37,653 nt of DNA from a virus. The notes under the pieces were generated by a model. The model saw only the letters and a program-made list of their open reading frames with translations. It did no database searches and was not told the origin of the DNA. The DNA is taken from positions 1 to 37,653 of the IMG/VR virus record IMGVR_UViG_3300037847_002535; one strand, 5' to 3'. Numbering within the stretch: position 1 is the first letter of the stretch; each line of letters begins with the position of its first letter. A program made the translations under genes and the position numbers. Positions 15,205 to 33,825 of this stretch are shown piece after piece.

Positions 15205-15904
15205 TGTCTTCTCCTTTTATTTCTTTGAGTTTATTTTCTTTAGTTTCAGCTAAGATTTCTTTTTTCCTAGCTACCAATTTGTTGACCAAGTCATCATAGA
15301 CACCCTTCAACTTAGGTATGCTTCTTAAAGAAAGTAACTTAGACTGATTTTCTATTTTCCACCTACCTATTTCTTCTTCAGACTTTCCATCTATCCAATC
15401 CATAGCTTCGTCTTTGAAAGCTTTAAGTTCTTCTTCGGTATAAGTGACAGTCAAATCTTCCACCTGCGACTCTGCGTTTTCAGAATATTTACTGGTCTCA
15501 GTTTTATTCTCAGTCACAGCCATATCCCAATCTTCCTCGGCTTGGTTTCCATCATCATCATTACCTGTGGGTAATCCACAAGCAGTCTGCAAACTATAGC
15601 GTTTTGCGTATGAAAGCGAACTACCATATCCTTGAGGTGTCTTTTTGTCTGCGATAACATAAACCTTACCACCTTTGACAACTGCACCATGTCCATGAAA
15701 CTCAGTCTCAACACATTGTCCATTGTCGGCTAAGTAAACCTTTTGCAAAAAGAAAATACCATTATCATTCAATGGTTTCTTTACTGCTCTTATTACTTCG
15801 TCTAAAGGTGCATATTCACTATTAAAATGTGGATTCTTACCTGTTGCTAATCCATGAGTCATTTCAGATTGTGCTTTGACTAAAGCATCTATTAGTTCTT
15901 TCAT
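15197..15904 (-). CDS. erf: ERF-family single-strand annealing protein
   Basis: A 235-residue protein whose first 120 residues match the ERF superfamily: LIDALVKAQSEM, YAPLDEVIRAVKKPLNDNGI, then GSSLSYAKRYSLQTACGLPTG followed by an acidic DDDGN run. ERF proteins of P22-like phages anneal complementary single strands during recombination and end repair. The C-terminal third is acidic and helical. The gene sits between an SSB-like protein and a PD-(D/E)XK exonuclease, the usual phage recombination set. It contains one copy of the dispersed ACCAGTAAATATT repeat, encoding TSKYS. Confidence 0.88.
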   Translation of the reverse strand: MKELIDALVKAQSEMTHGLATGKNPHFNSEYAPLDEVIRAVKKPLNDNGIFFLQKVYLADNGQCVETEFHGHGAVVKGGKVYVIADKKTPQGYGSSLSYAKRYSLQTACGLPTGNDDDGNQAEEDWDMAVTENKTETSKYSENAESQVEDLTVTYTEEELKAFKDEAMDWIDGKSEEEIGRWKIENQSKLLSLRSIPKLKGVYDDLVNKLVARKKEILAETKENKLKEIKGEDNE

Positions 15905-22177: not shown

Positions 22178-22192
22178 ACCAGTAAATATTTT
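22178..22192 (+). repeat. ACCAGTAAATATTTT repeat, copy 3
   Basis: Exact 15-mer, preceded by ATAT and followed by ATTTT as in copy 1 at 13588. On the minus strand it reads ATATTTACTGGTATAT, which contains an extended -10-like TGGTATAT. Promoter or binding-site roles are both possible. Confidence 0.6.
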
Positions 22193-22237: not shown

Positions 22238-22274
22238 AAAAAAAAAGGCGGTAACTACCGAAGTAGCTACCGCC
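22238..22274 (-). terminator. Terminator of the MoxR-VWA operon
   Basis: Minus-strand stem GGCGGTAGCTAC / GTAGTTACCGCC (22274-22263 with 22258-22247, one mismatch) is closed by a stable C(UUCG)G tetraloop and followed by nine T (22246-22238). It lies 19 bases beyond the stop of the last gene (22293), the right place to end the leftward operon. A TTTAATTT run on the other side gives weaker activity for rightward transcripts. Confidence 0.88.
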
Positions 22275-22292
22275 TTTAATTTATTTATCTTC

Positions 22293-22592
22293 CTATCTAT
22301 CCTCCCTTAGTTCAACTTTATTATTGACAAGCTTGAAAGCAAGTCTCCTCGCTCTAGTCTTTTCTATAGACTCCTGAGATTCCAACCTTTCAGGGTAGAG
22401 TTTATCCAACCATTTTTCTACTATGAAAATGTTTTCATTGTAGAAACTTAACAAGTCAAACATCTCAGCTATTTTGAGATTATCTCCTTGCATGTCTTCA
22501 ATCCTCGTGCCTATGATTTGAGTATAGATATTAGAGTTAATGTCTATGAGAGCCTTGGCAGACTCTTCAAGAATTTCTTTTTCACTTTTCAT
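22293..22592 (-). CDS. Small helical unknown protein
   Basis: A 99-residue protein, highly helical and charged (MKSEKEILEESAKALIDINS, then AEMFDLLSFYNENIFIVEKWL and TRARRLAFKLVNNK). The start overlaps the upstream stop as ATGA. It is the last gene of the leftward operon, followed by a strong terminator. No family recognised. Confidence 0.65.
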   Translation of the reverse strand: MKSEKEILEESAKALIDINSNIYTQIIGTRIEDMQGDNLKIAEMFDLLSFYNENIFIVEKWLDKLYPERLESQESIEKTRARRLAFKLVNNKVELREDR

Positions 22593-22819
22593 TTGCTCAC
22601 CCTATCTACTTCTACAGAAAACCTTCCGATATGTTTTTTAACAATAGCAAGGCATCTATCTCTTTCCTCTTCATCAAACTTTTCATCACTTTCATTCCGA
22701 GTTTTACCTTGGTCTATCAGCGAACAAAGAGCATCACATAAATGATATTCAGTTAGAGAGTTGTATTCACAGTCTAAGAGTTCAAAAGTTATTTTGTACT
22801 CAACCTTTTTATTACTCAT
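22589..22819 (-). CDS. Small unknown protein
   Basis: 76 residues from ATG 22819 (MSNKKVEYKITFELLDCEYN); this ATG has AAGGGGGTGAGG directly upstream and overlaps the preceding stop by eight bases, so it is preferred over the GTG two codons earlier. Beta-rich start, acidic middle (ESDEKFDEEERDRC), helical end. Function unknown; translationally coupled to both neighbours. Confidence 0.6.
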   Translation of the reverse strand: MSNKKVEYKITFELLDCEYNSLTEYHLCDALCSLIDQGKTRNESDEKFDEEERDRCLAIVKKHIGRFSVEVDRVSK

Positions 22820-23144
22820 CCTCACCCCCTTCTAAATGAATAGTCTGTCCTACTTGAGACAGGCTAAACGTATTATCTTCATTGAGTTTAAGTCTGTAAG
22901 TAAAACCATCGTTTTCCTTTTCAAAATAAACAAAAGTAAGATTTTCTATAGCTTCTGCTACTTGCTTAAACCACTCTTCCCCATCAACATGATTGAGTAC
23001 AGGTGATATAGGCATTGAAACAGTATCAAGTTGTTTCATTGAAACAGTATCAAACTGCCTGTAAACACTATGCACAAGCTTGCTTGCTAATTGCTCGCCT
23101 GTTGCTTGTACATAGAGTTTATTTATTTTATTAAATGCTTTCAT
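22812..23144 (-). CDS. Small unknown protein with duplicated segment
   Basis: 110 residues from ATG 23144, chosen because GGAG lies six bases upstream; an ATG four codons earlier is inside that site. The N-terminal helix (MKAFNKINKLYVQATGEQLA) is followed by a tandem repeat QFDTVSM-KQLDTVSM, produced by a recent-looking DNA duplication. The end is acidic. It is the first gene behind hammerhead C, downstream of the VWA gene. Function unknown. Confidence 0.65.
   Translation of the reverse strand: MKAFNKINKLYVQATGEQLASKLVHSVYRQFDTVSMKQLDTVSMPISPVLNHVDGEEWFKQVAEAIENLTFVYFEKENDGFTYRLKLNEDNTFSLSQVGQTIHLEGGEDE
23013..23053. repeat. 17-base direct repeat inside the 110-aa gene
   Basis: CATTGAAACAGTATCAA occurs exactly at 23013-23029 and 23037-23053, 24 bases apart, which keeps the reading frame and duplicates the DTVSM peptide. 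Exact identity suggests slippage or unequal copying in the recent past. Confidence 0.8.
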
Positions 23145-23164
23145 ACATTTCTCCATTGGTTAAT

Positions 23165-23224
23165 AAACTAATTTCGGCACTTTTGTGCCATCATCAGGGA
23201 AAACACACATTTTCCGATTAGTTT
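23165..23224 (-). ncRNA. Hammerhead ribozyme C (type III)
   Basis: Minus-strand RNA folds as a complete hammerhead open at stem III. In order: stem III AAACUAAU with AUUAGUUU (8 bp, ending in the U16.1-A15.1 pair), cleavage-site C17 at 23216, stem I GGAAAA with UUUUCC around loop UGUGUG, core CUGAUGA (23197-23191), one extra U, stem II GGCAC with GUGCC around AAAA, then GAA plus A15.1. All invariant core bases are present; the single departure is the U between A9 and stem II. The chrysanthemum chlorotic mottle viroid hammerhead is known to tolerate an extra base there. The cut would fall 72 bases before ATG 23144. Confidence 0.88.
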
Positions 23225-23253
23225 TGAGAAAAACGACCTCCATATTTGAGCGT

Positions 23254-23319
23254 AGAGCAACGAACAGGAAGCAAGTTAACCTCGTATATGTCCGAAATTA
23301 ACTTGCCCTGTATCGCTCT
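23254..23319 (-). other. Long stem-loop after the VWA gene
   Basis: Directly after the VWA stop codon the minus-strand RNA forms an extended hairpin: nine perfect pairs GCAAGTTAA/TTAACTTGC (23271-23279 with 23298-23306), continued outward by ACAGG/CCTGT and AGAG/CTCT with bulges, and inward by TTTCG/CGAGG. No T run follows, so it is unlikely to be a plain terminator. It may protect the 3' end of the upstream mRNA left by hammerhead C cleavage. Confidence 0.6.
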
Positions 23320-23323
23320 CTAA

Positions 23324-24829
23324 TTAGCTGAAGTTCCTAACATCAACCTCAACTACGTCACCGAAAGGCATTTCAGAGGATTTTGCCTGATACTCGTTGG
23401 TGATTGCCCAAATAACAGGAACATTGGGTTCAACCTCAGGTGAGACCATGCCCCATCCATCAGTAAAGTAGATGAATGCACAAACATCATCAACATCATC
23501 TGAATGCTCATTGAAGAGATTGAAGGGAGGGTCAAAGGCAGTTCCACCTCCACCCCTCATTTCCAGTTCAATCTCGTCACCATTGGCTAGGTCAAAGACA
23601 TCCCAAAATTCTCCATGCTCGTTAGAATTGATTGTCGTATCGCAGTAACAAACATGAACCCTTTCAAGATTAAGAGACCTCACTATCTCGTCTATCTCAA
23701 CTGCATAAATGTTCAGTTCATGCTGAGAGATAGAACCACTAGTGTCTATCGCTATTGCTATCGCACCACCGCTAGGGTCTTTGATATTGCTAGGCAGATA
23801 AACACCTCTGTGAAAATGTCTCCTGTTAGGTCTTGCCCAAGATTGGTCTCTGCTGATAGACATATCTAACATATCTCTCAGCACTTCTCTCCAATCGCTG
23901 GTTTGACCTTTGACCTTTTCAACTGCACCTCTAAGGGAAGATGTTCCACCAAGGCTAGACATCTTGTCAGCCATGAACAACTTAGACCTTATGTTGTCAG
24001 CTATCTCGGTAATTTTTGCGGAGTCAAGTTCGTTACCTTGCTCGTCTGTTGGCTTGATAATCTCACCAACAAGGTCAGGCAAAGCATCAAACTTATCCAC
24101 ACTAGTTCCGCCACCATCAGAATATTTACCAGTCTCAGTTTCTTCACCCTCTTCAGAGTCTTCACCTTGACCGCCCTCACCCTCGTCAGAGTCCTCTTCT
24201 TCTTCAGAGTCATTAGGCTGGTTATCTGATTCTTGTTGTTGCCTTTGTTGTTCAGCAACATCATTAGCATCTTCCAACGCTTGCTGAAAAGCTTCATCAT
24301 CTGTGCTTAACACTCGATAAATTTCTTCAGCAGTCATGTTGTGGTATTCATAATTCCACAGTCCACCCTCAGGCAGTCTGTAATGTAGTTCGTACCACAA
24401 ATAGTTATTGATGGCATAATCACAAGCAACATTCCAAAGCTTGTGATTCCTGTTACCGAACCTCAAAGGATGTTCAAACACAACATGCAAAGCTTCATGT
24501 ATCAACACCGCTTCAACTCCCTCGTCAGAAGTCTTAGCAACGAAGTCAGCATTCCACTTTATCTGTGTGCCATCTGTAGCCATTGTCTGTATGTCAGTAG
24601 ACTCAACCAAAGGCAAGTTCAGTAGCATAGAAGCAATGCCGATATCTTTAGACATCAGCCTTGCTCTAGCCTTAATAACTTTTTGCTCTAGGTAATTGTC
24701 AAACAATTCTTGTGAAGTGTTTTTCTTCAAGATAGGTTCAACTTCAGTTTTTGCACATTCTTCACAAAAACCCCAAGCACCGCCTAAATTAATTTGGGCA
24801 TTACATTTAACACAATTATCTTGAGTCAT
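23324..24829 (-). CDS. Zinc-ribbon, metallopeptidase-like and VWA domain protein
   Basis: 501 residues from ATG 24829, which has GGAGG five bases upstream. C6-x2-C9 and C22-x2-C25 form an N-terminal zinc ribbon. HEALH at 111-115 with H120 belongs to the putative metallopeptidase domain of the DUF2201 type. A very acidic Glu/Asp/Gln/Ser linker follows (about 185-235). The C-terminal VWA-like domain carries the MIDAS motif DTSGS (D362) and FTDGWG. Such proteins act with MoxR/CobS-type AAA+ ATPases, as in CobS-CobT or RavA-ViaA, to remodel or metallate a target. The matching ATPase is two genes upstream. The start overlaps the 322-residue gene. Confidence 0.85.
   Translation of the reverse strand: MTQDNCVKCNAQINLGGAWGFCEECAKTEVEPILKKNTSQELFDNYLEQKVIKARARLMSKDIGIASMLLNLPLVESTDIQTMATDGTQIKWNADFVAKTSDEGVEAVLIHEALHVVFEHPLRFGNRNHKLWNVACDYAINNYLWYELHYRLPEGGLWNYEYHNMTAEEIYRVLSTDDEAFQQALEDANDVAEQQRQQQESDNQPNDSEEEEDSDEGEGGQGEDSEEGEETETGKYSDGGGTSVDKFDALPDLVGEIIKPTDEQGNELDSAKITEIADNIRSKLFMADKMSSLGGTSSLRGAVEKVKGQTSDWREVLRDMLDMSISRDQSWARPNRRHFHRGVYLPSNIKDPSGGAIAIAIDTSGSISQHELNIYAVEIDEIVRSLNLERVHVCYCDTTINSNEHGEFWDVFDLANGDEIELEMRGGGGTAFDPPFNLFNEHSDDVDDVCAFIYFTDGWGMVSPEVEPNVPVIWAITNEYQAKSSEMPFGDVVEVDVRNFS
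24121..24133 (-). repeat. Variant of dispersed repeat (ACTGGTAAATATT) in VWA gene
   Basis: Encodes TGKYS in the VWA protein linker. It differs from the main 13-mer only at the two central bases of CCAG (CTGG here). A similar variant lies in the exonuclease gene at 16857-16871. Confidence 0.45.
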
Positions 24830-25784
24830 CATTACCTCCAAGCTTACCTAAGATACCATCCTTGATGGGGTCTATAGCCTGTGTTAAATCTTCAGCTACA
24901 GATTTTCTCTTAGTCTCTTCTAACTCGCCATCACCTCTCAGGCTTGATACGTCATTGATTTTTGCTAACGCACCAACCAACTCAGCATGTGACTGATTAA
25001 TGAAAGGGTCGTTCCCCAAGATATCAGCATTGATAGAAGGCAGAACGTCTAACGCTTGCCTTAACTTATCGAAGCTTGAGTCTTTAAAGAAGACCTTGTC
25101 CGAGTCATAGTTATTTAATTTGTCCGCAATATGCTCGACCTGTTCTACCAAAGCTTCAACAGTAGTCTGAAAAACATTAGCAACATTTTTTCTGATTCTG
25201 CTTTCAGTAGCTTCTTCAATTTTTCTTTGAACACTAGCAGAGACATTAAGTCTAATGTCTCTAGAGTTACCTGTATCAGGAATAACCTGTGGCTCAATAT
25301 CAAATTTGAATTTAGAACGTATGTCCTCAACGTGGGGATAATCGTCAGGGTCATAAGCTTCACCGAGGTGTAACTTAGCATCCTCAACTAACTGTGGGTA
25401 CTCGTCACAGAACGCATCAACCTCTTTATAAAATTCAGTCTTTGCATCCTCTAAAGCTTGCCACACTCTATCAAATTCCCTGTTAGGACAAAGTCTCCAA
25501 CCGCTTACAACCTTTCCATCACCATCAGACGTATTGTCATCCCAAGGCAAAGTCAAAGGATAGTAAACATTGTTGCGTACTTGATTAATTATTCTCCTAA
25601 AATACTTGTTGGCATTCTTGCCGACCAAGTGTTTAGAAACGTGAAGAGAGTCCGACTCAGCATTCTTATCGTCTGCTAAATCTACTCTCAGTCTTTTGTC
25701 TGCTTTTATGCCACTCCAAAACTTCGTAGTTAAACGAATTAGCATGGCATTCTGCGACAAAGTAGTAGTAGTATTTTCTGTCAT
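24816..25784 (-). CDS. MoxR-VWA module middle protein (322 aa)
   Basis: A 322-residue, mostly helical, acidic protein. ATG 25784 follows TTTAGGAGG by five bases. Segments LIRLTTKFWSGIKADKRL, HLVGKNANKYFRRIINQVRN and FDRVWQALEDAKTEFYKEVDAF show no catalytic signature. Long helical stretches near residues 180-260 suggest a coiled coil. Its place between a MoxR-type ATPase and a VWA protein resembles three-gene sets in which the middle protein is of the DUF3150 type; that family name is a suggestion from memory. Likely an adaptor or target of the ATPase. Hammerhead E lies in its leader. Confidence 0.65.
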   Translation of the reverse strand: MTENTTTTLSQNAMLIRLTTKFWSGIKADKRLRVDLADDKNAESDSLHVSKHLVGKNANKYFRRIINQVRNNVYYPLTLPWDDNTSDGDGKVVSGWRLCPNREFDRVWQALEDAKTEFYKEVDAFCDEYPQLVEDAKLHLGEAYDPDDYPHVEDIRSKFKFDIEPQVIPDTGNSRDIRLNVSASVQRKIEEATESRIRKNVANVFQTTVEALVEQVEHIADKLNNYDSDKVFFKDSSFDKLRQALDVLPSINADILGNDPFINQSHAELVGALAKINDVSSLRGDGELEETKRKSVAEDLTQAIDPIKDGILGKLGGNDDSR

Positions 25785-25891
25785 AAAAACCTCCTAAACA
25801 AAATATATACTAGTTAATAATTATATTTCACTCTGCCCACTAGTGTGTTGCAGTTACCTGTGGTATTTGCAATACAGCAGTAGGTTCGTGA
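25785..25891 (-). promoter_or_regulatory. Structured leader of the 322-aa gene
   Basis: Downstream of the hammerhead E cut, the minus-strand RNA folds CTG-TATT-gca-AATA-cca-CAG into a hairpin, then holds a TTATTAACTAG element and a strong AGGAGG. The cleaved mRNA would thus begin with a short free end and a 5' hairpin. Confidence 0.5.
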
Positions 25892-25979
25892 AACCCTAAC
25901 ACCCTTGTCACAGGGTTAGGTCGTCACCGATACCTAGTTTAATGTTTCGTCTGAATCTCACAGAACTCCTCAGAGGGTT
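25892..25979 (-). ncRNA. Hammerhead ribozyme E (type I) overlapping the moxR stop codon
   Basis: Open at stem I. Stem I AACCCU (25979-25974) pairs with AGGGUU (25897-25892). Core CUGAGGA (25973-25967) matches CUGANGA exactly. Stem II G-C plus UCUG/CAGA with one bulged U is closed by a UGAGAUU-type loop, followed by GAA and A15.1. Stem III ACA/UGU holds two further hairpins: UAGG-UA-UCG(GUGA)CGA-CCUA and CCCU(GUGACA)AGGG. The cleavage base is U17 at 25898. The stop codon UAA of moxR contributes two bases to stem I. A competing CCUAAC/GUUAGG hairpin could switch it off. Confidence 0.7.
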
Positions 25980-27030
25980 AGTACTCCAAATCCCTATTCG
26001 CCAACTTGAAGGCTGAATAAGAATCGGTGTCAATGAGTTCGCTTCTCTTCTCTGTGCATTGTCTAACAAAGAAGATAGAAAACTCAGGTGTTGGGTAGCA
26101 CTCTTTGAAGAAGTCCAAAGCATTCTCAAAGTAAGTGAAAACTTTCTTATCGTTTGCATTTGTCACAACGTCAATCAATGCAGTAGCAGTAGCAAAACAA
26201 AGTCCAACATCTTCTATAGTCTGCTTACATCTTCCCTCAACTATTTCAGTCAAGTTCGGTATGTCGTTCATTAGCAGTAAGAAGTTCTTAAACTCAATCG
26301 CTTGCACTTCACCCACAAAGCTTTTGACTAGTTCCTGTATGATTGATTCATCAGGATTAGTCTTCAGCACGTCACTCAGATTAGTCCAAGTTCTAGGGGA
26401 AGGCTGAGAACCCAACTCTTTAGAATCGAAGTCATTCAACGCTTGTGGCTGGTAGTTAAGGTAACCCATAACTCTTGAGTCAACACCATGTGATGTTGCC
26501 CACTTTGACCAATCGTTGAAGTCATGTTCAAACTCTATCAAAGACACCCTACCCACAACATGAGAAGGTATCTTGTTAGAAGACGCTCTGTCGCTTGACC
26601 TGTTACCAGCACAAACAACTTTCCATCCCTCAGGCAGAACATATTCACCAAGTCTTTTCTCCTTGATTAATTGTCCAGCCAAAGTCTGAACGCTGGGGTG
26701 AGCCTGTGCAAATTCATCCAAGAACAAAAGACCTTCACCTTTTGTTGGAAGATTACCAAGGAACGCTCGCTTCTGATTATTGTCCTTATCAAGATAGGGC
26801 AGACCTCCAAGGTCTACCGACTCAAGCAAAGACAATCTAAAATCTATGAACCCAAACTCCTTTGAGTTAGGTGCGAGATTATCTACAGATAGCTTTCTGT
26901 TCCCAGCAAGTTCATTTGCTATATCAAGAACAACTGCCGACTTACCGACACCTGTTCCACCCAATAGGAAAGGAGTTATCCCCCCTTCCAAAGTTTTAAG
27001 AGCAATCGCTCTAGCTATTGATGGTTTCAT
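25978..27030 (-). CDS. MoxR/CobS-like AAA+ ATPase
   Basis: 350 residues. Walker A GGTGVGKS at 24-31, Walker B LLFLDEF at 101-107 and a sensor-1-like CAGNRSSD are all present, with the DLGGLP pre-Walker-B element that marks MoxR/CobS-type ATPases. The C-terminus is a helical lid. MoxR ATPases remodel a client recruited by a VWA partner; here the VWA gene is two genes downstream in the same operon. The start follows CTAGGAGG. The leader carries hammerhead D, and hammerhead E begins at the stop codon. Phage role unknown; assembly chaperone or host takeover are both possible. Confidence 0.88.
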   Translation of the reverse strand: MKPSIARAIALKTLEGGITPFLLGGTGVGKSAVVLDIANELAGNRKLSVDNLAPNSKEFGFIDFRLSLLESVDLGGLPYLDKDNNQKRAFLGNLPTKGEGLLFLDEFAQAHPSVQTLAGQLIKEKRLGEYVLPEGWKVVCAGNRSSDRASSNKIPSHVVGRVSLIEFEHDFNDWSKWATSHGVDSRVMGYLNYQPQALNDFDSKELGSQPSPRTWTNLSDVLKTNPDESIIQELVKSFVGEVQAIEFKNFLLLMNDIPNLTEIVEGRCKQTIEDVGLCFATATALIDVVTNANDKKVFTYFENALDFFKECYPTPEFSIFFVRQCTEKRSELIDTDSYSAFKLANRDLEY

Positions 27031-27059
27031 ATTACCTCCTAGAAATCATCAGTTAATGT

Positions 27060-27078
27060 TGCTTGCACCATGCAAGCA
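27060..27078 (-). promoter_or_regulatory. 5' hairpin of the cleaved moxR mRNA
   Basis: UGCUUGCA and UGCAAGCA pair over eight bases around a three-base loop, starting four bases after the predicted hammerhead D cut. It would cap the 5' end of the moxR message. A ribosome binding site CTAGGAGG follows before ATG 27030. Confidence 0.6.
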
Positions 27079-27157
27079 CCTAGAAGAACCTTGTTACAGG
27101 CACGACTATGAATCGTTTTAATCTTTTCGCTAGAATTTCACTAGCACGTCAGTAGGC
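27078..27157 (-). ncRNA. Hammerhead-like ribozyme D (type I)
   Basis: Begins on the base after the stop codon of the 72-residue gene. Stem I GCCUA (27157-27153) pairs with UAGGU (27082-27078). Core CUGACGU (27152-27146) departs from CUGANGA by U in place of A9. Stem II GCUAG/CUAGC is followed by GAA and A15.1; stem III AAGA/UCUU encloses ACGA/UCGU and CCU(GUAACA)AGG hairpins. Cleavage would follow C17 at 27083. The CCUGURACAAGG hairpin is shared with ribozyme E, which supports common descent. The A9 change may lower activity. Confidence 0.6.
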
Positions 27158-27376
27158 TTATTGAGTTCTCCACTTTTCGTTTTGCTCTCTGATTATCTTT
27201 TTCCATAATCTTTCGTTTCTTTTGTGTCTTATGGTACTTGCTCTCACATAGTCTTTGAATTCATCAAAATCAATACTAAGTGATTTAAGTAATGGTAAAT
27301 CAGATAGTTCTACTTCTATATCTCTATCTACATAAAGTTGAGTTAAAGCTTCATAAGTTTTTCTTGTTGCTTTCAT
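27158..27376 (-). CDS. Small basic unknown protein
   Basis: 72 residues (MKATRKTYEALTQLYVDRDI and onward), with a basic C-terminus (RHKRNERLWKKIIREQNEKW). ATG 27376 follows TTAGGAGG at five bases. It stands alone between hammerhead A in its leader and hammerhead D after its stop codon, so it could be released as its own mRNA. No family recognised. Confidence 0.65.
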   Translation of the reverse strand: MKATRKTYEALTQLYVDRDIEVELSDLPLLKSLSIDFDEFKDYVRASTIRHKRNERLWKKIIREQNEKWRTQ

Positions 27377-27406
27377 AATTCCTCCTAAGAATTAATTAGT
27401 TAATTT

Positions 27407-27458
27407 ACTGTTTCGCCCTAACAGGCATCATCAGAACAGGCACACACCTGTTGACAGT
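27407..27458 (-). ncRNA. Hammerhead ribozyme A (type III)
   Basis: Stem III ACUGU (27458-27454) pairs with ACAGU (27411-27407). The cleavage triplet is GUC with C17 at 27453. Stem I AACAGG/CCUGUU surrounds loop UGUGUG. Core CUGAUGA (27434-27428) is intact, followed by an extra U, stem II GCCU/GGGC with loop GUUA, then GAA and A15.1. CUGUC, the UGUG loop, CUGAUGA and GAAACAG are the landmarks of the satellite tobacco ringspot virus hammerhead in the same order. The cut falls 77 bases before ATG 27376. Confidence 0.87.
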
Positions 27459-27498
27459 CAGGGGAAACTTTTTAGGTCTCCCCCGCATTGGTTAAAAT

Positions 27499-27783
27499 TT
27501 AAACACTTAGCTGAAATTTATTGATGATGCTATCCCAAATTTCAATGGCTTCATCTGTTTTCATCCATTCGCCATTTTCCTTTTGTATCATTTGTGGAGA
27601 AAAATCACTCACCATCAAATCTAAAGCAGATAATATGAAATCTTTTTCTACTTCTGTAAGTCTGCTTTCCTTTTCTCTGAGCCTTCTTAATCTAGCCTTA
27701 ATTAATTTTTTAGCATGGTCTAAATTTCTAGCTTGAATTTGAGTTCCAGCTAGTTTCCCTTTTGTTACGTTAAATGTTTGCAT
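27499..27783 (-). CDS. Small basic unknown protein, first gene of the operon
   Basis: 94 residues (MQTFNVTKGKLAGTQIQARN and onward). A very basic helix KKLIKARLRRLREKE is followed by an acidic, aromatic C-terminus (DEAIEIWDSIINKF). ATG 27783 has TTTAGGAGG at five bases. It opens the leftward operon behind hammerhead B. Nucleic-acid binding is possible from the charge; no family recognised. Confidence 0.65.
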   Translation of the reverse strand: MQTFNVTKGKLAGTQIQARNLDHAKKLIKARLRRLREKESRLTEVEKDFILSALDLMVSDFSPQMIQKENGEWMKTDEAIEIWDSIINKFQLSV

Positions 27784-27818
27784 AATTCCTCCTAAAGAAT
27801 TAATTGGTTAATAATTCA

Positions 27819-27868
27819 ACTGTTTCTGCTTTCGCTTCATTCAGGCTGGACACACATCCAGCGACAGT
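27819..27868 (-). ncRNA. Diverged hammerhead ribozyme B (type III)
   Basis: Stem III ACUGU (27868-27864) pairs with ACAGU (27823-27819). Cleavage triplet GUC, C17 at 27863. Stem I GCUGGA/UCCAGC closes the same UGUGUG loop. The core reads CUGAAUGA, one base longer than CUGANGA, and stem II is only GC(GAAA)GC flanked by A on both sides, then GAA and A15.1. Stems III and I are perfect and co-vary with copies A and C, but the core insertion may cripple it. A rival hairpin GACAGTA/TACTGTC just upstream can sequester stem III. Confidence 0.65.
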
Positions 27869-28270
27869 AGGAGGTACTGTCAGTTAGTTTTTACTCTTCC
27901 CTAGACTCTAATCATTCAGCCGAAGCTTACTGTGATTATCCTCATGTACTTAATCGACTTTATGGTTCGCCTGACTAAGCATCCCTCAAGTAACCCAACG
28001 CTACTTTCACAGGGAGGGGAATTTCATCCCATCAAAGACTTGCAATAACTGTCACTTATTGTTCGTCACCTACGCCCATTTTTTCTGTTCTCGTCTCGTT
28101 CACATGAACCCTAGCTTTATATTTCACTAGGAGGGGGAGTCATCACGACTGCGTTCCATGTGGTACATATTAGCATCCCTATCCTCATTTGCAACTACAT
28201 TCTTATCTACATAAGTGAAAGCATCTTGCGAGCGTTCCCATAGAACCTGTGACGAGTTAATATTCCTCCT
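27869..28270. other. Gene-free divergent region between operon and terS
   Basis: About 400 bases with no convincing gene on either strand. It must hold the promoter of the leftward operon and probably of terS, but I see no clear sigma-70 pair. Several small hairpins occur: CAATAA/TTATTG near 28043, GTTCACATGAAC near 28099, CTTAT-ctac-ATAAG near 28203. On the minus strand AGGAGG (28270-28265) is followed by a 44-codon open frame from ATT (28261) to TAG (28127) with no standard start codon. Confidence 0.5.
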
Positions 28271-33429: not shown

Positions 33430-33825
33430 ATGAAAAAAGTAGTAGCAGAATCTAAAATAGAAGAACTCACACCTGAAGAGGTTGAGTCTAATAAAAAACA
33501 ATTACCTGACCCATCAGGCTATCGTATATTGGTAGCTATGCCTGTAGCAGATGAAAAGACTGAGGGCGGTATATTAAAGGCTAATCAAACTATTAAGGAT
33601 GAAGAAGTCAGTAATATATGTGGCATGGTAATTAAATTAGGTCCTGACTGTTATCAAGATGAAAGAAGATTCCCTAGCGGTCCTTGGTGCAAGGAAAAAG
33701 ATTGGGTGGTCTTTCGTGCTTATTCAGGCACACGCATGAAGATGTATGGTCAAGAGTTTCGTTTAATTAATGACGATACTGTGGAAGCAGTAGTTGAAGA
33801 CCCTACAGGAGTAGTTAGAGCATGA
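33430..33825 (+). CDS. GroES-like co-chaperonin
   Basis: 131 residues. LPDPSGYRILVAMPVADEKTEGGIL, then GMVIKLGPDCYQDERRFPSGPWCKEKDWVVF and SGTRMKMYGQEFRLINDD (quoted by segment) follow the chaperonin-10 fold: the mobile-loop region around DEKTEGGI, and a roof strand near GPDC. Phage examples (T4 gp31 and marine relatives) redirect GroEL to fold the capsid protein. Here the gene sits between portal and scaffold, matching such a role. It overlaps the scaffold gene as ATGA. No clear ribosome binding site is seen. Confidence 0.8.
   Translation: MKKVVAESKIEELTPEEVESNKKQLPDPSGYRILVAMPVADEKTEGGILKANQTIKDEEVSNICGMVIKLGPDCYQDERRFPSGPWCKEKDWVVFRAYSGTRMKMYGQEFRLINDDTVEAVVEDPTGVVRA

Follow-up and report, generated by a model that had tools for sequence, protein, structure and literature searches.

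Why should almost every gap between the genes of a phage operon hold a self-cleaving RNA? The question is raised by the IMG/VR virus record IMGVR_UViG_3300037847_002535, a 37.7 kb record analysed here over its whole length (37,653 nucleotides (nt); hereafter the window). Its leftward operon starts beside the divergent terminase small subunit gene (terS), ends at a terminator (22277-22244) and comprises, in order, two small unknown genes, a MoxR-type ATPase gene, a DUF3150-like gene, a DUF2201 gene and three small overlapping genes. All five gaps of this operon, the leader included, contain a hammerhead-like RNA with a predicted cut (A to E, A being the leader copy). An earlier note, made from the DNA letters, had taken them for a scheme that processes one transcript into separately stabilised mRNAs. 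From the sequence comparisons described below, we consider it likely that a single transcript is self-cut at each gap, giving separate messages with hairpin-flanked ends.

Hammerheads in the gaps of the operon

The whole window was scanned on both strands with a hammerhead descriptor, and a score of at least 14 was taken as a strict hit. The strict motifs of the window were B, D and E only, all in operon gaps and on the operon strand, with no comparable strict score elsewhere; scores of at least 14 occurred 9 times in 100 shuffled windows versus 3 times in the real one. Copy C was recovered by the window scan once one core mismatch was permitted, and A was missed by the first scan because of its extra core base (CUGAAUGA) and its stem II of 2 base pairs (bp). 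As most leader copies of the relatives had likewise been overlooked, the descriptor was widened after these misses and the shuffles were re-run under the same rule. Many gaps initially scored as empty proved to hold variant hammerheads, some with additional hairpins separating stem II from GAAA, others with long stem III inserts or an AAGAAAC form.

All five copies lie on the minus strand. Hammerhead A (type III; 27819-27868; cut 27863/27862, from the extended scan) has a stem II of 2 bp and the core CUGAAUGA, which contains an A6a insertion. Hammerhead B (type III; 27406-27458; cut 27453/27452) supplies in its stem I the 5' hairpin of the predicted gene 2 mRNA. Hammerhead C (type I; 27078-27157; cut 27083/27082; core CUGACGU, A9U) begins right behind the gene 2 stop codon, and hammerhead D (type I; 25892-25979; cut 25898/25897; core CUGAGGA) starts inside the stop codon of the ATPase gene. 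Hammerhead E (type III; 23164-23224) has its cut at 23216/23215. Copies B, D and E carry the canonical features of the class (CUGANGA plus GAAA, three helices and an NUH cut site), B and E with one additional U between core and stem II. Copy A lacks an uninterrupted CUGANGA core, its A6a insertion being a natural hammerhead variant with low reported activity; the leaders of two relatives, L003 and L005, have canonical CUGAUGA. Copy C departs from the class at A9 (CUGACGU in the window versus CUGACGA in a similar copy of L234), and is probably either a decayed copy, weak or dead in this genome, or a canonical one altered at this base by an assembly error.

The earlier note had placed a hammerhead in every real gap and in the leader, with cuts at 23215, 25897, 27082, 27452 and 27862, and none in overlapping gene pairs. 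All of this was borne out: motifs were found at 5 of 5 sites, the predicted cuts agree exactly (B to E by scan, A read from the sequence and by the extended scan), and the descriptor scan found no hammerhead at the overlapping pairs 24829/24816, 22819/22812 and 22592/22589. Rfam model RF00008 (Hammerhead_3) finds B (E = 1e-4, 34.8 bits; curated cut-off 48.5), and nothing in the window or in 18 relatives reaches the Rfam gathering threshold. Among the 4,227 families searched, every hit at E ≤ 0.05, in eight relatives, was a hammerhead, a result independent of the custom descriptor. Curated Rfam cut-offs conceal a large conserved ribozyme set, and annotation by Rfam alone overlooks the whole system.

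The same rule in related operons

Relatives were collected as about 80 IMG/VR loci by using the ATPase protein and its profile (ATPases 52-100% identical), and bacterial relatives of the ATPase were used solely as a control. Together with the window these loci represent a family of phages that are marine and uncultured. The strict descriptor gave 240 hits in 80 loci, 240/240 on the operon strand and 240/240 within the operon; the control loci (1.05 Mb) gave 7 scattered strict hits. When distinct sequences were counted with the extended descriptor, a hammerhead was present in 185 of 193 gaps of at least 60 nt and in 45 of 50 leaders, versus 0 of 54 touching junctions and 2 of 1,215 shuffled gaps. 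A hammerhead is still discernible by eye in the missed gaps of L183, L196, L242, L243 and the window (C), the remaining misses being empty or doubtful gene calls, and L246 has the ATPase with no clear hammerhead. The largest number per operon was seven scanner hits (L223). In four records of 56-58 kb strict hits fell in the operon only, and a looser scan added a few scattered singles, which were taken as chance. A synteny search for the same series, which the earlier note had proposed as a check, thus found the ribozyme-per-gap rule in about 80 relatives, and the absence from touching genes extends to them. The ribozymes lie on the coding strand, in gaps, between genes of one transcription unit, as in the array type proposed by Perreault 2011.

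A D-like ribozyme occupies the same place in L001-L005, and the 22 distinct ribozymes found at junction E, counting window and relatives together, all belong to type III. Before the ATPase the window has a type I copy (C), and its nearest relatives, L001-L005, have a canonical type III; because this junction can switch type, the cut rather than one particular sequence appears to be kept. Helix positions placed from the core were 97% paired versus 24-44% after sliding the register, a figure partly built in, since the descriptor requires pairing; its informative part is the variety of pairs, and double changes with pairing retained were seen at 10-11 of 12 helix pairs. The constancy of A15.1-U16.1 was dropped as evidence for a hammerhead, the pair being imposed by the descriptor.

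Gene cassettes are exchanged around the ribozymes. Near-identical copies stand upstream of unrelated small genes, one 23-copy cluster preceding 16 gene families and one 15-copy cluster preceding 9, and each gene apparently moves as one unit, independent of its neighbours after cutting.

Some relatives carry elaborated forms. Before the DUF3150-like gene, one or two extra hairpins (for example GACUC-AAAA-GAGUC) stand between stem II and GAAAC in L203, L204, L223, L195, L240 and L243, and the same insertion occurs after the DUF2201 gene in L224 and L213; this is an unusual core insertion, with covariation judged by eye. At the former junction L176, L179, L181 and L183 have a type I copy whose stem III encloses an insert of about 150-350 nt with its own hairpins. 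The UGUGUG-loop hammerhead pattern was also seen in seven phage contigs without window-protein matches (L016, L018, L036, L042, L059, L079 and L088), which carry 2-4 hammerheads each, some of type II, so that the habit extends beyond the family of the window.

Hairpins at the predicted ends and the leader copy

The two ribozyme types are framed differently. Type I copies start at the upstream stop codon (median 0 nt; at least 15 nt of extra sequence in 5 of 87), and the upstream piece would keep their stems II and III at its 3' end. Behind the type I cut stands a separate, non-ribozyme hairpin (first 40 nt, mean -10.2 kcal/mol, z -2.8); all copies with at least 40 nt behind the cut fold below -4 kcal/mol there, an arrangement like that of the RiboJ insulator with its downstream hairpin. 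At type III copies the separate hairpin lies upstream, as a 3' hairpin in 96 of 97 (mean -23.8 kcal/mol, z -3.9), and stem I would be left as the 5' hairpin of the downstream piece. Because each design supplies one hairpin per side, every predicted piece has a hairpin near both ends, and the claim of the earlier note that each cut leaves a 5' hairpin held for both types (stem I in type III, a separate hairpin in type I). Cut-to-start spacing had medians of 57 and 78 nt.

A family of 3' hairpins was also selected by its loop alone, independently of the ribozyme descriptor: in 12 distinct copies the 9 pairs were 100% paired, 6 of 9 were doubly changed, and the loop CUAAUAA was nearly invariant. 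The window member, with a stem that covaries in the family, is the predicted 3' hairpin of the gene 1 mRNA (GGGGGAGAC-CUAAAAA-GUUUCCCC; 27459-27485, minus strand). Other hairpins of this strand are the predicted 5' hairpins after cut C (GCUUGC-AUGGU-GCAAGC; 27061-27077) and after cut D (25882-25896), and a long 3' hairpin behind the DUF2201 gene (23254-23320), read from the sequence.

The leader copy stands apart. Between terS and the first operon gene lies a noncoding leader (27863-28270, minus strand; about 300-400 nt), with a 3' end that the cut of ribozyme A would define. At its end a hairpin, GACAGUA-CCUCC-UACUGUC (27863-27881, minus strand), has a 3' arm that ribozyme A also uses as the 5' strand of its stem III, and hairpin and ribozyme are therefore mutually exclusive. 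A hairpin ending at the cut was present in 43 of 44 type III leaders versus 16 of 111 other type III junctions, with CCUCC in its loop region in 38 of 44 versus 11 of 111; the stem varies among relatives with pairing kept, and the ribosome sites preceding these genes read AGGAGG or UGGAGG, to which CCUCC is complementary. Leader ribozymes have a median stem III of 4 bp versus 7 bp elsewhere, and the best state free of stem III is more stable than their ribozyme state by a median 2.4 kcal/mol, whereas at other junctions the ribozyme state is favoured by 2.4 kcal/mol. The A6a core was found in 15 of 45 leaders versus 7 of 199 other junctions. The simplest reading of these features is a gated or slow leader ribozyme, which suggests a switch. 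It is possible, though we hold it only tentatively, that the operon is run by RNA alone, with unregulated hammerheads insulating every cassette and the leader hammerhead acting as a natural switch through the CCUCC hairpin, whose loop resembles an anti-Shine-Dalgarno sequence. Opening of this hairpin would permit the cut, by which some 400 nt of leader RNA would be released and the 5' end of the first message reset. If true, this would be a natural gated hammerhead heading a ribozyme-processed operon.

The leader as a whole is 83-88% identical in nucleotides to those of L002, L005, L209, L211 and L223, some of which have ATPases only 56-58% identical, and an unrelated leader substitutes for it between the same flanks in L003 and L004. 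Its folding energy was ordinary (z -0.75) and covariation was seen at 8 of 78 predicted pairs, for which reasons no structure is claimed for it; no Rfam family fits it. The leader RNA (window 27863-28270, minus strand; L005 557-957; L209 641-935; L223 2020-2324) is possibly a phage noncoding RNA family. A second leader form was observed in many of L176-L249 (for example L227, L233 and L240); this is a type III ribozyme in which loop I reads GAAUUAAC, AAGAAAC follows stem II and stem III is very short.

Proposed processing, its alternatives and known systems

Hammerhead cleavage yields 5'-OH and 2',3'-cyclic phosphate ends. In the proposed scheme the whole operon would be transcribed as a single RNA, which the hammerhead in each intergenic gap would cut into one message per gene or per block of overlapping genes. 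Each piece would have its 5'-OH beside a hairpin and its 3' end, the 2',3'-cyclic phosphate, behind one; neighbours would then cease to influence its folding, its decay or its ribosome site, and gene cassettes would thereby become freely exchangeable. The leader ribozyme would be a slower or gated version, with its stem III strand held in the CCUCC-loop hairpin, and its cut would free the leader RNA. What the sequences show is the motifs with their placement and strand, the hairpins at the ends and the exchange of cassettes; cleavage in cells, protection of the ends, insulation and gating of the leader are deduced from these. The regular placement makes the function open to direct test: for every junction the scheme predicts a single 5'-OH end and a single 3' end capped by a hairpin.

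Several points weigh against this scheme. That these RNAs cleave is read from their sequence, and their stabilisation by a 5'-OH together with hairpins is assumed for this host from other systems, with RiboJ in support. The cores of two of the five copies in this genome (A and C) are defective, folding into the leader ribozyme costs a median 2.4 kcal/mol, gap D contains an AT-rich promoter-like stretch, and Rfam scores stay under the curated cut-off (best 34.8 bits in the window and 39.4 in relatives; 48.5 needed). The loci are also related and metagenomic, so that the counts overstate independence. The processing scheme of the earlier note is supported in part, by the rule in about 80 relatives and by the hairpins at both piece ends, and qualified by the defects of A and C and by a leader copy unlike the others.

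Four other explanations were weighed against the same evidence. Each gap might have its own promoter, the mRNA 5' ends being transcription starts and the ribozymes minor or relict. The AT-rich stretch of gap D does contain a weak sigma-70-like match (25831-25802), and a TATTTACTGGT-like motif is repeated at 25819, 22188, 22103 and 13598; however, the region has fewer promoter-like matches than its shuffles (9 versus 15), most gaps have none, and a ribozyme in nearly every gap would be left unexplained, which makes this explanation improbable. Separate promoters in each gap were what the earlier note had named as able to overturn its reading; most gaps lack even a promoter-like match, and the one in gap D is weak. 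Cutting might instead lower expression, with messages exposed to decay and ribozyme speed setting gene dose. The uneven distribution of the A6a core between leaders and other junctions looks as if speed were tuned, but a decay signal would call for the opposite of hairpins at both piece ends and the cut-to-start spacing leaves the ribosome site intact, so that we regard a dampening role as unlikely to a similar degree.

Two flanking hammerheads are the layout that gives circles in other systems (retrozymes), and the pieces could be ligated into circular mRNAs or noncoding RNAs, like retrozymes and viroid-like RNAs. Hammerheads do stand on both sides of each gene, with ends that would suit an RtcB-type ligase; yet no RNA ligase was found among those window proteins that were searched, which did not cover every open reading frame, and in Perreault 2011 a search for spliced or circular products of comparable arrays gave a negative result (PMC3088659). 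Circles are therefore very unlikely here. The idea that the ribozyme sequences are kept chiefly as shared DNA for homologous cassette exchange, RNA cutting being incidental, draws on the near-identical ribozymes that precede unrelated genes. It is contradicted by stem sequences that vary widely with the fold kept and by the change of ribozyme type at a junction, because a recombination tract would preserve sequence and not base pairing, and we give it scarcely any credence. Self-cutting of one transcript at each gap remains the preferred explanation.

The TATTTACTGGT motif and its near variants were found on the minus strand at 22188, 22103, 13598 and 25819 and on the plus strand at 15486, 16861, 21130 and 24123; variants are often near-palindromic in gaps of relatives, and the motif is a possible operator or promoter.

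The operon genes all lie on the minus strand. Gene 1 (27499-27783; 94 amino acids) has no family match, and other genes stand in its place in relatives; gene 2 (27158-27376; 72 amino acids) likewise matches no family, and L084 has a 77% identical copy. They are followed by the MoxR-type AAA ATPase (25978-27030; phrog_1297), the DUF3150-like protein (24816-25784; 24.8 bits versus a cut-off of 24.9), whose gene overlaps the next, and the DUF2201 metallopeptidase-like/VWA-like protein (23324-24829; family match). The three overlapping small genes (22812-23144, 22589-22819 and 22293-22592, together 22293-23144) are free of ribozymes between them, and the intrinsic terminator that closes the operon (22244-22277) was the sole strong terminator found, at the operon end. 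Outside the operon, the terminase large subunit is 54-59% identical to those of the Pelagibacter phages HTVC023P and HTVC027P and of the phages 023Pt_psg01 and DSL-LC04, and the portal and head genes match as well. A GroES-like (Cpn10) gene stands among the window head genes (33430-33825, plus strand), as in related pelagiphages.

These four phages are the nearest named ones, with head genes shared with the window. A strict scan of the first 50 kb of each of their records gave no hammerhead, no related ATPase operon was found there, and the operon had no match in phages by blastn. In the open literature (subscription papers being outside the scope) we found no report on the phages studied here or on a gap-by-gap hammerhead system. 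The earlier note knew of no such series; this has to be amended in part, as clustered hammerheads flanking prophage genes were described in 2011 and proposed to cut long transcripts into gene-sized mRNAs (Perreault 2011, PMC3088659). Cleavage in vitro was shown for three of those tandem arrays, and for the triple array of Agrobacterium in Escherichia coli as well (PMC3088659); as late as 2023 the clustering of self-cleaving ribozymes close to phage genes was described as unexplained (PMC10085705). As in the window, several hammerheads there flank single genes or short blocks in phage DNA. The 2011 arrays have no constant genes and those tested were short, whereas here a syntenic operon carries a ribozyme in nearly every gap in about 80 contigs, with up to seven scanner hits (L223), hairpins at the piece ends and a leader copy of a special kind. 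What appears to be new is the system of one ribozyme gap by gap, together with the two-end rule and the switch proposed for the leader.

Phage morons are single genes with their own promoter and terminator. The cassettes of this operon resemble them as small exchangeable genes with self-contained expression signals, but their independence would stem from RNA cutting and not from a promoter and terminator of their own. Loop I of the type III copies (UGUGUG) and the CUGUC cut are similar to those of sTRSV, the parent of RiboJ. RiboJ is a synthetic insulator, a hammerhead plus a hairpin, that raises mRNA about 2-fold in E. coli and standardises its 5' end (PMC6206723). The likeness lies in a hammerhead followed by a hairpin ahead of the ribosome site, the type I copy with its downstream hairpin being the natural counterpart; RiboJ is used once after a promoter, whereas here the device is repeated between genes with 3' hairpins added. 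Such a system would let phages trade genes without disturbing their neighbours, as a natural, operon-wide repeat of an insulator known from synthetic biology.

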